From Candidatus Doudnabacteria bacterium (GTDB lineage: Bacteria > Patescibacteriota > Doudnabacteria > UBA920 > O2-02-FULL-48-8): DNA of 34,996 nt. Of this stretch, positions 11,922 to 34,489 are shown piece after piece. The stretch is taken from the NCBI GenBank assembly GCA_025450105.1, contig JANWIA010000034.1:1-34996 (forward strand), in the 5' to 3' direction. The stretch's first letter is position 1, and each line of letters begins with the position of its first letter. Made by a program: the position numbers and the translations under genes. The notes below the pieces were generated by a model. It saw only the letters and a program-made list of their open reading frames with translations. It was not told the origin of the DNA and ran no database searches.

Positions 11922-12347
11922 TTAAGCTTGAGGTGCAGCTTCTTTTGGAGCTTCGGCAGGAGGTGCTTCCGGAGCTGGGGCTTCTGGAGCCGGAGCTTCG
12001 GCAGGAGCGGCAGCGGCTTCAGTCTTTGGAGCTTCAGCTGTTGGAGCCGGGGCAGTTGGAGAATCGGTTGCTTCCTTTTTCTTTGGCTGCCAGGCTTTAA
12101 CTTTTTTGCCTTCAACCAATTTCTTTTCTACAAAAAGGTTGTGAACGCTTGGAGAAACCTGCACGTTCTGGTCTAACCAATATTTAAGTCTTGTTTCATC
12201 TTTAACGGCAAAATTCTTACTGCGTGGATCATAACTGCCCAAAACTTCCAAGAATTTCTTGCTTGCAGATTTATGTGCTTCAGCCAAAACAATGCGGAAT
12301 TGAGCTTTGTTCTTGGTGCCAGTTCGTTGTAATCGGATAGTTAACAT
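11922..12347 (-). CDS. rpsP: 30S ribosomal protein S16 with Ala/Pro/Glu-rich tail
   Basis: S16 binds 16S rRNA early in small-subunit assembly. The first ~85 residues are a standard S16 (MLTIRLQRTGTKNKAQFRIV, then ASKKFLEVLGSYDPRSK and LKYWLDQNVQVSPSVHNLF). A tail of about 50 residues made of Ala, Pro and Glu (repeated PAPEAPAPEA-like units) follows, bringing the protein to 141 residues against 80-90 in most bacteria. The tail should be disordered and could extend from the 30S surface. It has its own promoter, with the -35 box just upstream of the smc stop codon, and its own terminator. Confidence 0.96.
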   Translation of the reverse strand: MLTIRLQRTGTKNKAQFRIVLAEAHKSASKKFLEVLGSYDPRSKNFAVKDETRLKYWLDQNVQVSPSVHNLFVEKKLVEGKKVKAWQPKKKEATDSPTAPAPTAEAPKTEAAAAPAEAPAPEAPAPEAPPAEAPKEAAPQA

Positions 12348-12375
12348 GTAGTAATTAATAAATTAGTGCTCGCGT

Positions 12376-12404
12376 ATAATAACAAAAGTGTGCAATATGG
12401 TCAA
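12376..12404 (-). promoter_or_regulatory. Promoter of rpsP
   Basis: TTGACC (12399-12404) and TATTAT (12376-12381) on the minus strand with a 17-bp spacer. It lies between smc and rpsP, the -35 box just 3' of the smc stop codon. Confidence 0.75.
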
Positions 12405-12406
12405 GC

Positions 12407-14512
12407 CTATGATTTCACTTGCTTCTCCGCTTGTTCGAGCTTTAAGGAAAGGATCTTCGAGATGCCTTCGTCGGTCATGGTTACACCATAAAGCGTATGG
12501 GCTTCGTGCATAGTCGCACGGTTATGGGTAATAGTCACGAATTGCGTTTGATGAGCTAGCGTCCCGAGAATTTTTGCAAAACGAATTGAGTTGGCTTCAT
12601 CCAAAGCAGCATCGACTTCATCTAATACTACGAATGGCGATGGGTACGATGCGAGCATGGCGCAAAGCAAAGCGATTGAAGTTAATGCGCGCTCCCCACC
12701 AGATAATGCGGCGATGGTAGAAAGCTTTTTTCCAGGAGGAGTTGCTTTGATTTCAATCCCGACTACCTGCTTAGTGCCCTTTATTTCCTCATCCTCCCCT
12801 TCTTCCTTTTCTTCAATCTCTTCGCCTTCTTCTGTAACAATTTCCTTCAACAAATTCATGTGCGCCCGGCCACCGTTAAATAAAATACGGAAGTATTCCG
12901 AAAACTTTGTGGAAATTAGGCCGTAGGCTTCATCGAATTGTTTCTTAATAACATGGTCAAGCTCATCAATAACCTGCCGCAAATCCGTAACAGCTTTTGT
13001 TAAATCCGCATGCTGCGACGACAAATAATTAAACCTCTCTTCGGTTTCGCGGTATTCCTGCATGGTCAATTCATCAACACCACCGGCGAGTTCCAATTGC
13101 CGCTTGAGCTTTTCAATTTTATGAGGCAAATCTGCAGCAACACTTTCGACTTTATCAGTAGGCTCAACCGCATGGCCCATAGTCTCGCGTGAAGTCTGCA
13201 ACATCGACTCGAATCTTGTTTCTATGCGGGCCTTTTCCACCATGATTTTGGTCTGCTCTTCCTTTAACAAATTTAACTGCGAAGATTTAATGCGGAATCT
13301 TTTTTCCTCTTCAGTCAAAAAACTTTTCTTCCGTTTTTCTTCCGCAATTAACTTTTCACGGGCAGTGTTATGGTCGTGTATTTCCTCAACCATTTTTTCC
13401 AAACGGTCATCCAACTCCTTCTTCTGTTTCAATAACTCCGTATTATCGCTTTGGCTGTATTCAGCAACGAGATCCTTAAGCTTCTTTTTTACTTCACTAA
13501 GATTTTTCTCTGTGATGGATTCAATAATTTCCTCAAATTGTTTGCGGAATACGGAAAAATCTCTGGCAACCGGTACCTTAAGCTTACCTCTAATCTCGGC
13601 GAGCTTTTCCAGTAAATCCAATTTCTTTTTTTCCAACGCACTGCCCTTTTTATCTAATTCATCCAAAAAACTGTTGGAGTTTCCGGTTTGAACCTCTTCC
13701 TTTTCTAAAACTTTTTGGAAAGATCCGATTTCGTGCTCCAATTTTTTAATACCCTCCTGGCTGCCATCAAAACGACCTGAAATTTCCTTCAATTCCTTAT
13801 CCAACAAATAATACTGGTGACCAAAGTACTGTCGATTTAAATCTGAATACTCTTTTTCTAAACCTTCGCGCTCTTCCATCCGCTTGGCTTGGCGGCGCAA
13901 AGACTTCAAGCGCGGCTCTATTTCGTTGATTAAACTTGAAACTTGGGTTAAATTTTCTTCGGTTTGCTCCAAACGACGAATTGTTTTGTCGCGCTTGGTG
14001 TAATATGGCTTAACGCCAGATGCTTCTTCGATTAAATTTTTAACTTCGGCCGGACCGGCCAAAACCATTTGATCGATAGTACCCTGCCCAATAACCGCAT
14101 AGTGGCTCGCGCCGAATCCGGAACGGGATAAGGCATCGACCACATCCAGTAAACGGACACGCTGGTTGTTAACCAAATATTCCGATTCTCCATCGCGGTA
14201 AACCCGGCGGCGGATTTCCACCTCGGAATATTCAAACGGCAACTTATGGTCTTTGTTATCGAAAGTCAGCGCGACTTCGGCCATAGATTGCTTCGATTTT
14301 TTGTCGGAACCGGCAAAAATTACGTCTTCGGTTTTTTTCCCGCGCAAAAGTTTCATGGATTGTTCTCCCATGACCCAGCGCAAAGAATCAGCGACGTTGG
14401 ATTTACCCGAACCGTTGGGGCCGACAACCGCAGTCATGCCTGGTTCAAATTCCAATACCGTTTTGTGCGCAAAGGATTTGAACCCGTGAATTTCTAACCG
14501 TTTTAAATACAT
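12407..14512 (-). CDS. smc: Short SMC-family chromosome segregation ATPase, no recognisable hinge
   Basis: The two head halves are clearly SMC: Walker A GPNGSGKS (31-38) with FKSFAHKT before it, Q-loop-like FDNKDHK, FGASHYAVIGQGTIDQ, then C-terminal LSGGERALTSIALL (from 603) and Walker B FVVLDEVDAALDE (from 627). Bacterial SMCs are usually about 1,150-1,200 residues; this has 701. Only about 350 residues of charged coiled coil lie between the heads (about 165-515). The ~150-residue hinge that dimerises SMC is not recognisable, nor is a Rad50-type CxxC hook. A Glu-rich insert (EEGEEIEEKEEGEDEE) precedes the C-terminal head. It probably acts in chromosome organisation, but how it dimerises is open. 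Confidence 0.9.
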   Translation of the reverse strand: MYLKRLEIHGFKSFAHKTVLEFEPGMTAVVGPNGSGKSNVADSLRWVMGEQSMKLLRGKKTEDVIFAGSDKKSKQSMAEVALTFDNKDHKLPFEYSEVEIRRRVYRDGESEYLVNNQRVRLLDVVDALSRSGFGASHYAVIGQGTIDQMVLAGPAEVKNLIEEASGVKPYYTKRDKTIRRLEQTEENLTQVSSLINEIEPRLKSLRRQAKRMEEREGLEKEYSDLNRQYFGHQYYLLDKELKEISGRFDGSQEGIKKLEHEIGSFQKVLEKEEVQTGNSNSFLDELDKKGSALEKKKLDLLEKLAEIRGKLKVPVARDFSVFRKQFEEIIESITEKNLSEVKKKLKDLVAEYSQSDNTELLKQKKELDDRLEKMVEEIHDHNTAREKLIAEEKRKKSFLTEEEKRFRIKSSQLNLLKEEQTKIMVEKARIETRFESMLQTSRETMGHAVEPTDKVESVAADLPHKIEKLKRQLELAGGVDELTMQEYRETEERFNYLSSQHADLTKAVTDLRQVIDELDHVIKKQFDEAYGLISTKFSEYFRILFNGGRAHMNLLKEIVTEEGEEIEEKEEGEDEEIKGTKQVVGIEIKATPPGKKLSTIAALSGGERALTSIALLCAMLASYPSPFVVLDEVDAALDEANSIRFAKILGTLAHQTQFVTITHNRATMHEAHTLYGVTMTDEGISKILSLKLEQAEKQVKS

Positions 14513-23394: not shown

Positions 23395-23760
23395 TTAGAC
23401 TGTTCCGAGCAAAGCATTCTCAATAACACGGAGAATGACATAAGCGAGGATGATGACGATGATACCAATGATAGCGTTGAGGATCGTCTTTTTGGCAGCC
23501 TCGACAGTTTCTTCATTGCCACCCGCGGTTACGTATCGGAATCCACCGATGATCAAGAAGAGAATTGCGATTAATCCGGCAAGTGCCAAAGCAATCTGGA
23601 CAATTCGAGTGATGATCGAGGTGATTGTGGTGTTACCGCCGGAAAAACCTGTGGCTAATCCCCCGGGAGGCGGCGGAAGAATTTGCGCCGATACCAACAA
23701 AGGGACTGCCAAAGCTACTACGGTAGCCGCTGCTGCAAAATGTCTGGATGTTAGTTTCAT
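23395..23760 (-). CDS. TrbC/VirB2-like pilin protein, fifth of five
   Basis: The 121-residue protein has a Sec signal (to about LLVSAQ), a short Pro/Gly-rich segment, and two membrane helices (~46-73 and ~91-115) joined by a polar loop GGFRYVTAGGNEETVEAAKK. This helix-loop-helix is the TrbC/VirB2 pilin pattern of type IV secretion systems, common as multi-copy small genes in CPR genomes. A CCCGCC-TATT-GGCGGG hairpin (23787-23802) lies upstream and an AAGG ribosome site precedes the ATG. It is the last gene of the operon starting at 26982. Pilus-like assembly or a membrane-embedded role are both possible. Confidence 0.88.
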   Translation of the reverse strand: MKLTSRHFAAAATVVALAVPLLVSAQILPPPPGGLATGFSGGNTTITSIITRIVQIALALAGLIAILFLIIGGFRYVTAGGNEETVEAAKKTILNAIIGIIVIILAYVILRVIENALLGTV

Positions 23761-23786
23761 ATTTTTATACCTTTCTTATTTCTGTC

Positions 23787-23802
23787 CCGCCTATTGGCGG
23801 GA
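23787..23802. repeat. CCCGCC/GGCGGG hairpin before the last pilin gene
   Basis: Perfect 6-bp G+C stem with a TATT loop and no T-tract. Likely an mRNA-stabilising or processing hairpin that could raise the relative level of the last pilin. Confidence 0.5.
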
Positions 23803-23845
23803 TCGACCTTTATTGGTTTTAAAAATTAACCGACAAATTAATTTA

Positions 23846-24226
23846 CTATCCTATATTGCCATCGATCGCGTTCACAATTACTACAAGGATGACCCAGGAT
23901 AGGATAATGATTGCCAATCCAATGATGGCGTTTGTTAAAACACGCTTGCCTTGTTCGGTTCTGTCTTCGTTACCACCAGCCGTCATGTACAAGTAACCAC
24001 CATAAACGACAAATGCAATTGCGATGACGCCTGCAATTTCCAAAGCCAAGGTTACGATCGCCCGCAAGATACCGCCAATTGTCAGATCGCCGGTGCCGAA
24101 AGCAAAAGTGGCCTGACCAGGGACTGACTGTAATACAATAGCGCTAGCACTTGGTACGTTTAAAACAAAAACCATTACTAGCCCTAGCAATACTGGCAAA
24201 TATCGAATTATTAGTTTGTTTCGCAT
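23846..24226 (-). CDS. TrbC/VirB2-like pilin protein, fourth of five
   Basis: The 126-residue protein has a signal peptide ending near ASA (about residue 29), then two membrane helices around YGGYLYMTAGGNEDRTEQGKR, the same loop pattern as its neighbours. Its C-terminal helix (NAIIGLAIIILSWVILVVIVNAI) is nearly identical in kind to that of the third pilin-like gene, so the two probably arose by duplication. Same operon and orientation. Confidence 0.87.
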   Translation of the reverse strand: MRNKLIIRYLPVLLGLVMVFVLNVPSASAIVLQSVPGQATFAFGTGDLTIGGILRAIVTLALEIAGVIAIAFVVYGGYLYMTAGGNEDRTEQGKRVLTNAIIGLAIIILSWVILVVIVNAIDGNIG

Positions 24227-24279
24227 ATGAAAATTTAGCCTAAATATTATAACAATGCCTAATTATTATTGCAAATTTT

Positions 24280-24660
24280 TTATGGTGCACCGACATCGCC
24301 GTTAATTGCATTGGTGACAACAACCAGAATGACCCAGGACATAATTATTATTATTAGTCCAATGATGGCGTTGGAAATGATCTTCTTGCCCTTCTTGTTT
24401 TGATCCTCATTTTGTCCTGCCGTCATATAATAGTAGCCGCCGAGGACTAAAAAGAACATTGCGATCACCCCAGAGATCTCCAACATCAATTCCAGGATTT
24501 TTTGGAGTATTCCTTTGAAGGTGCCGTTACCAAATGAGGCAAAGAGACCAGGAGCCGGGTTATTATTCCCCCCATTTAGGAAACCCTGAGCATAAACACT
24601 ACTGGCAAAAGCGAAATTTACGACCAGTAACAGAAAAAATATTTTGAGTTTTCTTTTCAT
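24280..24660 (-). CDS. TrbC/VirB2-like pilin protein, third of five
   Basis: The 126-residue protein has a signal peptide ending at VYAQ (about 24-25) and an Asn/Gly/Pro-rich linker. It has two helices joined by GGYYYMTAGQNEDQNKKGKK, followed by NAIIGLIIIIMSWVILVVVTNAINGD. It is closest by eye to the fourth pilin-like protein. It starts 4 bases after the tandem-domain gene stop. Confidence 0.87.
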   Translation of the reverse strand: MKRKLKIFFLLLVVNFAFASSVYAQGFLNGGNNNPAPGLFASFGNGTFKGILQKILELMLEISGVIAMFFLVLGGYYYMTAGQNEDQNKKGKKIISNAIIGLIIIIMSWVILVVVTNAINGDVGAP

Positions 24661-24663
24661 AAA

Positions 24664-25293
24664 TTATACAAATAAATTTTTAACAGCTTCAATTAACACG
24701 TAAGCAAGAAGTGCAGTCATGAACCCGACAATTGACCAGAGCAGTCCAGTTTTAGCTTTGGCAGTTTGTTGTTCGTTGCCGGCGGCCGTAATATAAAGGA
24801 AACCATTATATACAATCATGACTGAAGCGAGGAATCCTAGCAAGCCCAAGAACATGGTTACGATCTTGGTTATGAACTGCTGCGTGTCACTTGAGCTCAA
24901 CGGATTCTGGATAGTTGGATTGCCTACGCCGCCTGGAATTGGAACAAAACCAATAAAATTCTGGAATCCTAATACTATTGAAAATGACAGGACGGAAACA
25001 ACCACGCCGATTCTCGCGTAACTAAAACCTGCTTTAGCAATTTTTAAATTTTCCGGTTCACCTCTGGCCATCAACATTCTGAATCCACTGACAACAATCA
25101 TGGTCACTGCCAGCATTCCAATTACAGTGCCGACAAAGACCAGAGTTCTAACCATCAACCCTTCAAACGAAGTGATATCACCCAAACCATTGCAAAGTTG
25201 CGTAGTTGCCGTGCCTGTACAAGTCGCTGCACTAGCAAACAACGGGGTGACTAATAATGCTAAATTAAATTGTAATAATAAAAGTTTTTTCAT
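24664..25293 (-). CDS. Double pilin-core membrane protein, second of five
   Basis: I start it at the ATG at 25293, whose first bases overlap the previous stop (ATGA); an in-frame TTG 6 bases upstream is less likely. After a signal peptide and a short Cys-containing segment (ATCTGTATTQLC) it carries two pilin-like cores in tandem. The first is about 50-105, with loop SGFRMLMARGEPENLKIAKA. The second is about 140-205, with loop NGFLYITAAGNEQQTAKAKT. The linker has FVPIPGGVGNP. A protein with two VirB2-like cores could act as an initiator or membrane platform rather than a pilus subunit. Confidence 0.85.
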   Translation of the reverse strand: MKKLLLLQFNLALLVTPLFASAATCTGTATTQLCNGLGDITSFEGLMVRTLVFVGTVIGMLAVTMIVVSGFRMLMARGEPENLKIAKAGFSYARIGVVVSVLSFSIVLGFQNFIGFVPIPGGVGNPTIQNPLSSSDTQQFITKIVTMFLGLLGFLASVMIVYNGFLYITAAGNEQQTAKAKTGLLWSIVGFMTALLAYVLIEAVKNLFV

Positions 25294-25691
25294 CCCCAAA
25301 ATTGGAATATTCCTTGGAAGCCAGGAAGCGAACCACCGGAAAGCTGACTAACAACGATATTAATAATCAAATACGATGCAAGAACAATCCCCAACCCCAA
25401 TACTGCATTACTTATTGTTGCTTTGCCTTTCTTAATAGACTCCGGGTTACCGCCAGACATAAGCATCTGGACTCCGCCAACCACCAAAAATAATAGTGCT
25501 ACCATTCCAGAACTAACCAAAAGAAAATTTATCATGTAAATGATCAATGTTTTGAGATCGCTTAGTCCGCAATCCTTGGCAGCTTGCGCCCCTTGGCAAT
25601 CAGTCGGCACTAAACCGGCCGCTATTACAAACATTGGCAGCGCCAGCAAAGTCAACACAAGTAAATTAACGACAAATGTTTTTCGTGTCAT
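25290..25691 (-). CDS. TrbC/VirB2-like pilin protein, first of five
   Basis: The 133-residue protein has a signal peptide to about AA (residue 25), two Cys (TDCQ and KDCG) possibly forming a disulfide, then helices around GGVQMLMSGGNPESIKKGKA and a C-terminal tail ending in FQFWG. Its stop overlaps the start of the next gene, and its own start is one base after the stop of the binding-protein gene, so the three are tightly coupled. Confidence 0.86.
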   Translation of the reverse strand: MTRKTFVVNLLVLTLLALPMFVIAAGLVPTDCQGAQAAKDCGLSDLKTLIIYMINFLLVSSGMVALLFLVVGGVQMLMSGGNPESIKKGKATISNAVLGLGIVLASYLIINIVVSQLSGGSLPGFQGIFQFWG

Positions 25692-33925: not shown

Positions 33926-33954
33926 AGTATAGCAACATCTGCGGCCCGTGCCAA
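33926..33954 (-). promoter_or_regulatory. Promoter of the DksA-like/lspA unit
   Basis: TTGGCA (33949-33954) and TATACT (33926-33931) on the minus strand, 17-bp spacer, with TGC before the -10 (extended -10). Confidence 0.75.
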
Positions 33955-33961
33955 GATTTTG

Positions 33962-33992
33962 CAAAATAAAAAAAGAGCCTACTGCTCTTGGA
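33962..33992 (-). terminator. Terminator of the ~490-nt RNA
   Basis: AAGAGC and GCTCTT (33973-33978 with 33984-33989) pair over 5 nt, followed by a TTTTTTT run on the minus strand. Confidence 0.85.
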
Positions 33993-34455
33993 TTTAAAAA
34001 TAGAGTGTGGGCGGATGATACCGCTCTTATATAAAAAATATGTAGCGTCATCCGCCCAACTAACGACTTCCACGAAGTCGATCTTCGTTCGCAGGATTGG
34101 GAGGCCTACTAATACTTTAAAAATTTTGTTTAAAGCGTAAGTCGCCCAAGCCTGGAACAAAGGTCGGCATTCTTTTGTGAAAACCGTTTGTACTTATATA
34201 TCTAATCACTTTATAAGTGTAAGAATGTTCATCACTGTTCTTACGGTTTTTTAGACCTAACAAATTTTTGATGTTTTTATTTTTGTTTTATTTTTATTTT
34301 TAAAACTTTTTGATTTTTGTTTTACAAGCAGCTGGATTAGAACAGCTATGACGAATAGTGAAGAACGGAAATTGGTTAAAGAGGTCTTTCACCCCTAACC
34401 GCCCCGCGCTATATCTATTGTTGAGGTCTAAATGTATTTCGTTTTTAATGTTCTG
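33965..34455 (-). ncRNA. Candidate structured non-coding RNA of about 490 nt
   Basis: A perfect promoter and a terminator bracket a stretch with no convincing reading frame. By eye the minus-strand RNA can form several helices. TTTAGACCT (near 34430) pairs with AGGTCTAAA (near 34255), closing a large domain. GGTTA...TAACC encloses a GGGGT/ACCTC stem. AAAACCG pairs with CGGTTTT around a GTAAGAA/TTCTTAC hairpin and a CACTT/AAGTG hairpin (three-way junction). GACTTC-GTG-GAAGTC is a perfect hairpin. GGGCGGATGA/TCATCCGCCC is a perfect 10-bp stem near the 3' end. An A-rich linker lies in the middle. It lacks the hallmarks I know for tmRNA, RNase P RNA, 6S or SRP RNA. Confidence 0.6.
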
Positions 34456-34460
34456 TAGAC

Positions 34461-34489
34461 ATTATAGCAAAAAAAACCGGCCCTGTCAA
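34461..34489 (-). promoter_or_regulatory. Perfect consensus promoter of the ~490-nt RNA
   Basis: TTGACA (34484-34489) and TATAAT (34461-34466) on the minus strand, exactly 17 bp apart, with TGC before the -10. Confidence 0.88.

Follow-up and report, generated by a model that had tools for sequence, protein, structure and literature searches.

ROOL and GOLLD RNAs are reported mainly from phages and prophages, and large structured RNAs which are kept for long evolutionary times tend toward central functions. In OLE, ROOL and GOLLD, kissing loops and A-minor contacts hold the RNA particles together (PMC12286853). The RNA described here is encoded in the window, by which we mean the whole 34,996-nucleotide stretch of DNA that was analysed, from a Doudnabacteria-type (Patescibacteria) genome. 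Like these three, it is several hundred nucleotides long and untranslated, it has an elaborate covarying fold with conserved kissing loops and A-rich elements, and its function is not established (PMC12286853). Unlike them, it is chromosomal and lineage-wide, and neither the window RNA nor 12 homologous loci matched the OLE, ROOL and GOLLD models of Rfam; one exact hairpin pattern, which tests only the closest sequence types, found no match in viral contigs, and a phage-borne RNA was rejected within that limit. The family is new in being related to none of those tested, although large ornate RNAs without a known function are already familiar as a kind, and our literature search, which left subscription papers and preprints mostly outside, found no described Patescibacteria RNA of the same sort. 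We consider it probable, with appreciable room for doubt, that these RNAs make up a new Patescibacteria family, non-coding, structured, present in single copy and trans-acting, whose role as a structural scaffold is inferred.

The gene is self-contained and extends from 34454 to 33968 on the minus strand (about 490 nt). The elements of the gene and of its fold are given below in the order of transcription.

34461 to 34489, minus strand, promoter TTGACA-17-TATAAT with extended −10 (TG); −35 at 34489-34484, −10 at 34466-34461
34441 to 34454, minus strand, boxA-like leader element AGAACATTAAAAAC, just past the inferred start (about 34454)
34355 to 34413, minus strand, 5′ domain, long hairpin (RNAalifold)
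34353 to 34366, minus strand, 5′ strand of the long-range closing helix P3
34330 to 34347, minus strand, hairpin A, whose loop UCUAAUC (34341-34335) kisses hairpin B (core alignment, kissing test)
34265 to 34323, minus strand, A-rich strand or strands of the closed domain (AAAACAAAAA...), with small hairpins inserted
34245 to 34257, minus strand, small hairpin GGUC..ACC, then a conserved AAG (86% of cells paired)
34227 to 34240, minus strand, 3′ strand of the long-range closing helix P3
34193 to 34217, minus strand, hairpin B, whose loop has GAUUAGA (34207-34201), complementary to loop A
34064 to 34186, minus strand, 3′ domain I, arm closed by CGGUUUUCAC (34186-34177) and GUGGAAGUCG (34073-34064)
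34005 to 34060, minus strand, 3′ domain II, the GGGCGGAUGA/UCAUCCGCCC hairpin already noted in an earlier, sequence-only reading
33968 to 33989, minus strand, intrinsic terminator AAGAGC-AGTAG-GCTCTT followed by T's
33926 to 33954, minus strand, separate promoter-like site, TTGGCA-17-TATACT, of the traR/dksA-like gene that lies downstream

The sequence-only reading of this locus had proposed an RNA with a perfect TTGACA-17-TATAAT promoter with extended −10 and a terminator, and we found both on the minus strand, the promoter with 12/12 consensus matches and as the top site of the 2.6 kb scanned, the terminator as a hairpin with T's at 33989-33968; the ends it gave to the RNA were borne out. 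A near-consensus promoter was present at the homologous place in all 49 members that could be checked, with a mean of 1.2 mismatches, where the best-scoring site of shuffled sequences had 3.6, and 76% of the members had at most 1.5 mismatches as compared to 0.5% of the shuffles. T-run terminators were recognised in most homologues having full-length sequence. Since the terminator is followed by the promoter-like site of the traR/dksA-like gene (33902-33546), the RNA is a transcription unit separate from traR-lspA. The minimum free energy of the 485-nt strand was −140.2 kcal/mol, while dinucleotide shuffles gave −92.2 ± 6.0 (z = −7.9). The absence of a convincing reading frame, claimed from the window alone, held in 19 homologues, which contained no ORF with ATG and Shine-Dalgarno and in which we found no conserved peptide; the shared peptide matches fell in two different frames, which points to conservation of nucleotides, and a small protein was ruled out on these grounds. 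That the locus is a real non-coding RNA gene is, in our judgement, almost certain.

At the place of the boxA-like leader element the homologues carry variants such as AGAACCTTGAAAACTGAA and AGCTCTTTAAAAACT. Bacterial rRNA leaders have boxA elements, the role of which has been described (PMC4807359, PMC10250234). A match of at least 10/12 to the published boxA consensus was observed in 33% of members and in 1.6% of shuffled leaders, and related motifs, judged by eye only, were seen in the rRNA leaders of the same genomes. The RNA, itself not an rRNA, would in this respect resemble rRNA-type units, a boxA-like element near the 5′ end of the transcript being enriched across the family. The window leader matches only weakly, its best match being 9/12 and away from the conserved place. 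In the absence of any Nus binding data we can only infer that boxA, through NusB-S10, may help RNA polymerase through a long untranslated transcript.

Upstream of the −35, about 31 of the 49 members have the DnaA box TTATNCACA or its reverse complement. It lies at −82 to −115 from the −35 in most members of family f2 (mostly −111 to −114) and also in members of f1, f3, f25, and f38, and nearer to the −35, at −34 to −55, in f5 and f62. At f2 loci such as L036, L023, and L118 the boxes stand at about −110 and are sometimes paired (TGTGGATAACCTGTGGATAA). In the complete genome G005 (892 kb) such boxes number only 29, and three stand within 2.4 kb of the RNA. No perfect box was found upstream of the window promoter, nor in several other members, and given also the weak boxA of the window we regard both elements as features of the family rather than of every member.

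Owing to these boxes, the main rival to a structural scaffold is a replication-linked RNA, which, modelled on plasmid RNAs using kissing loops, would be expressed from a DnaA-controlled promoter and intervene in chromosome replication, either as a regulator or in the way of a primer. Boxes that recur in the family while being rare genome-wide in G005, along with recA and an exonuclease-helicase as neighbours in the order, speak for such a role. However, DnaA boxes are common regulators and silent on how the RNA acts, the members without a perfect box do not fit, and the RNA of G005, at 682 kb, is 55 kb away from the origin, the GC-skew minimum lying at 627 kb and dnaA at 623 kb; the same positions ruled out the locus itself as a replication origin. 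We hold the replication-linked reading to be unlikely. For an RNA acting as a scaffold, the boxes would tie its expression to replication in many of the species, which again is an inference.

We examined the central domain in 19 aligned core sequences. There P3, the closing helix, counted 13 pairs, 8 of them with changes on both sides, and was paired in 88.6%; in the domain it closes, AAAACAAAAA was invariant or nearly so in the 19 sequences and remained recognisable in a wider set. Hairpin B had both-side changes in 4/6 pairs, and the kissing pair between loops A and B was formed in 99.2%, with 3/7 pairs compensatory. The core covariation score of 0.299 compares with 0.155 for shuffled alignments (0/500) and at most 0.09 for slid controls. 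Furthermore, in a kissing test we determined for every loop A the longest Watson-Crick match, first with the 3′ tail of the RNA that carries it and then with the tails of other members. Over 51 members with 25 distinct loop-A sequences the mean match was 6.4 nt for cognate and 4.2 nt for non-cognate tails, six or more Watson-Crick pairs were reached in 88% of the members as compared to 12% for mismatched partners, and when the 25 distinct loops were permuted 20000 times the observed sum was never reached. The pairs change together, as in UCUAACC/GGUUAGA, UCUAGUC/GACUAGA, UCUAAUC/GAUUAGA (window), UCCAAUC/GAUUGGA, and CCGAUCA/UGAUCGG. The predicted architecture which these comparisons showed is a long-range helix that encloses A-rich strands and a hairpin whose loop pairs with that of a second hairpin, placed immediately beyond the helix. 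Such loop pairing could be intramolecular or could join two molecules, and sequence cannot decide between these.

This kissing loop, a conserved tertiary feature, had been missed in the sequence-only reading, which drew instead a 9-bp helix (34432-34424/34258-34250) and a three-way junction closed by AAAACCGT/ACGGTTTT. Both are possible in the window sequence and absent from the family alignment, and of the junction one arm only (hairpin B, 34217-34193) is conserved; helix and junction are specific to the window sequence, and the conserved P3 and GGUC hairpin contradict them. Its GGGCGGATGA/TCATCCGCCC stem, in contrast, is real and conserved in same-family homologues, and the compensatory changes by which its helices were to be judged are abundant in all three domains.

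In the 5′ domain the long hairpin had compensatory change in 9/21 pairs (RNAalifold, 12 family members). Because the bases 34366-34355 are shared, the base of this hairpin and the 5′ strand of P3 are mutually exclusive locally, and a co-transcriptional structural switch is possible, though only inferred. Within the window's family, both-side changes were present in 15/27 pairs of 3′ domain I and 8/16 pairs of 3′ domain II, together 23/43 pairs for the 3′ domain as against 7.9 in shuffles (0/500). It may be noted that L011, L013, L014, and L016 have small GC-rich inverted or direct repeats in variable parts, at the RNA 3′ end or in the gap between RNA and traR, and that one such repeat, CCCGTTAGAAAT..., is found in L012 and L013.

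Loops and A-rich single strands which are exposed in the predicted fold could also serve a regulatory RNA that base-pairs with mRNAs via its loops. But the sequence varies freely while the structure stays, unlike the seed regions of pairing regulators, and the covariation of the two loops with each other indicates that they are used on each other. A regulator of this kind appears to us improbable.

Plain DNA similarity identified homologues in 13/13 other sampled genomes of the same family, mostly 73–82% identical. Covariance models were then built in three rounds, from 19 (R1), 43 (R2), and 44 (R3) sequences, and in a phylum sample of 380 genomes they matched once per genome in 33 of the 35 sampled genomes of the order, where the RNA is thus single-copy and nearly universal. 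Outside the order, ten genomes of about six families (f7, f9, f25, f38, f62, f142) gave matches, one per genome, with E values from 2.5e-11 to 0.007. These E values are approximate, and most sequences recovered by R3 had gone into building it; the members outside the order, except the weakest match (G169), which was left out of inspection, were therefore checked for a promoter-like site upstream and a complementary loop pair; G050 and G052 were less clean on one or the other. For these members only the central domain gives support, as comparison of the 5′ and 3′ domains was confined to the window's family. Weak model matches in G065, G055, G374, G151, G096, G089, and G135 were discarded, since they fell within genes, coincided with the end of a tRNA, or were without a matching promoter and kissing loop. 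The search tool loses many matches at first look, and non-detection in other genomes does not mean absence. An exact pattern from the conserved hairpin of the RNA matched 23 contigs of GTDB genomes, and all records among them that name a group are Patescibacteria, mostly ‘Candidatus Doudnabacteria’.

The neighbours recA, traR/dksA-like and lspA were confirmed in the window. The position next to recA, as claimed from the window, is true of its family, whereas the order's remaining families usually have a DnaQ-exonuclease/DinG-type helicase gene directly upstream. Downstream of the RNA the order has traR, lspA, and comM, and the synteny recA/[exonuclease-helicase]-RNA-traR-lspA-comM is long-lived. 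Elsewhere in the window (23395-25691, minus strand) we observed five consecutive small, similar membrane-protein ORFs with two to four transmembrane stretches each and a shared ‘..GG[YF]xY[MI]TAGGNE..’ motif; they resemble tandem paralogues of a pilin-like or TrbC/VirB2-like kind.

Such long-lived synteny would also fit a local (cis) role and counts against a trans-acting scaffold. In f7 and for the greater part of the order traR-lspA follows the RNA directly, and in f25 and f62 it is lgt-traR-lspA that lies downstream, as would be expected of a cis-regulatory leader or attenuator of the traR/dksA-lspA genes. However, about 490 nt far exceeds usual leaders, a terminator closes the RNA, with the promoter-like site of traR beyond it in the window, and the constant downstream gene which a riboswitch or cis-leader calls for is not met in f38, f9, and f142, where the downstream genes differ. 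Outside the order the downstream gene varies (pheS region, gmk, and others) while RNA and promoter stay, which argues for a trans-acting RNA rather than a leader. We give a leader or attenuator very little credence.

There remains the possibility that this RNA is one of the universal RNAs (RNase P, tmRNA, 6S or SRP RNA) which has diverged very far. Its size and its single-copy housekeeping pattern would agree with this, as would our failure to find RNase P RNA (RF00010) and SRP RNA (RF00169) in the window's own genome. RNase P RNA and tmRNA (RF00023) are also of similar length, with long-range helices and pseudoknot-type pairing, and, as with 6S RNA, the present RNA could be an abundant housekeeping RNA from a strong promoter. 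In Rfam 15 the window RNA had no match at gathering score and only chance-level matches at E up to 10, and the 12 homologous loci had none; the scan which the sequence-only reading had called for thus yielded no known RNA and agreed with its exclusion of tmRNA, RNase P, 6S, and SRP RNA. RNase P RNA is encoded at other places in 12/13 same-family genomes, and tmRNA in the window's own genome at G000:C4:12096-12479 (121.5 bits); as both genes lie elsewhere, the RNA is neither, and diverged forms of the two were rejected; nor does the locus have the tRNA-like domain of a tmRNA. 6S RNA was rejected because the locus has neither an RF00013 match nor the long hairpin with central bubble, and because 6S-like candidates, below cut-off, were located away from it in three genomes carrying the RNA, which is, moreover, much longer than 6S RNA and multi-domain, with a kissing loop. 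SRP RNA was rejected as there was no RF00169 match at the locus, no helix-8 motif in a motif scan of the window, and no Ffh in G005 outside a masked stretch of 72 kb. The universal-RNA reading, of which the RNase P and tmRNA versions are by now mostly refuted, can be set aside as scarcely credible.

With respect to the signal recognition particle itself, an E. coli Ffh query gave nothing credible in G005 (892 kb, 72 kb masked), though TrmD and RpsP were found, no SRP GTPase motif was seen, and RF00169 was absent from 18/18 genomes checked (RF01854 was outside the search). The particle may be missing in the lineage, subject to the masked 72 kb and to RF01854. The rnc-smc-rpsP-trmD cluster, at 12347-14512 in the window and also in G005, is without ftsY and ffh between smc and rpsP.

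Our best guess for the trans-acting RNA is that, without belonging to OLE, ROOL or GOLLD, it is of their kind, a structural scaffold or an RNA that works in a ribonucleoprotein; its biochemical function is not shown. Without RNA-seq or biochemical data, it is only inferred to be abundant and stable and to act as a structural scaffold. It might form part of a ribonucleoprotein, in which case the A-rich strands would be the likely protein or tertiary docking site, or, as the two loops could also pair between molecules, it might form a homodimer or oligomer; for neither the bound protein nor the oligomeric state are there data.

A bolder reading, which we regard as a speculative one with the odds clearly against it, is an ancient Patescibacteria-specific RNA machine, a particle locked by the kissing loop, under DnaA control and with rRNA-style antitermination, that performs a task specific to reduced symbiotic cells. 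Such cells may in addition be without the signal recognition particle. The RNA is absent from Rfam 15 and the RNA biology of its host group is almost unstudied; its covarying kissing loop and closing helix provide exact, mutable predictions for probing and cryo-EM, and make this RNA a new target for experiment.
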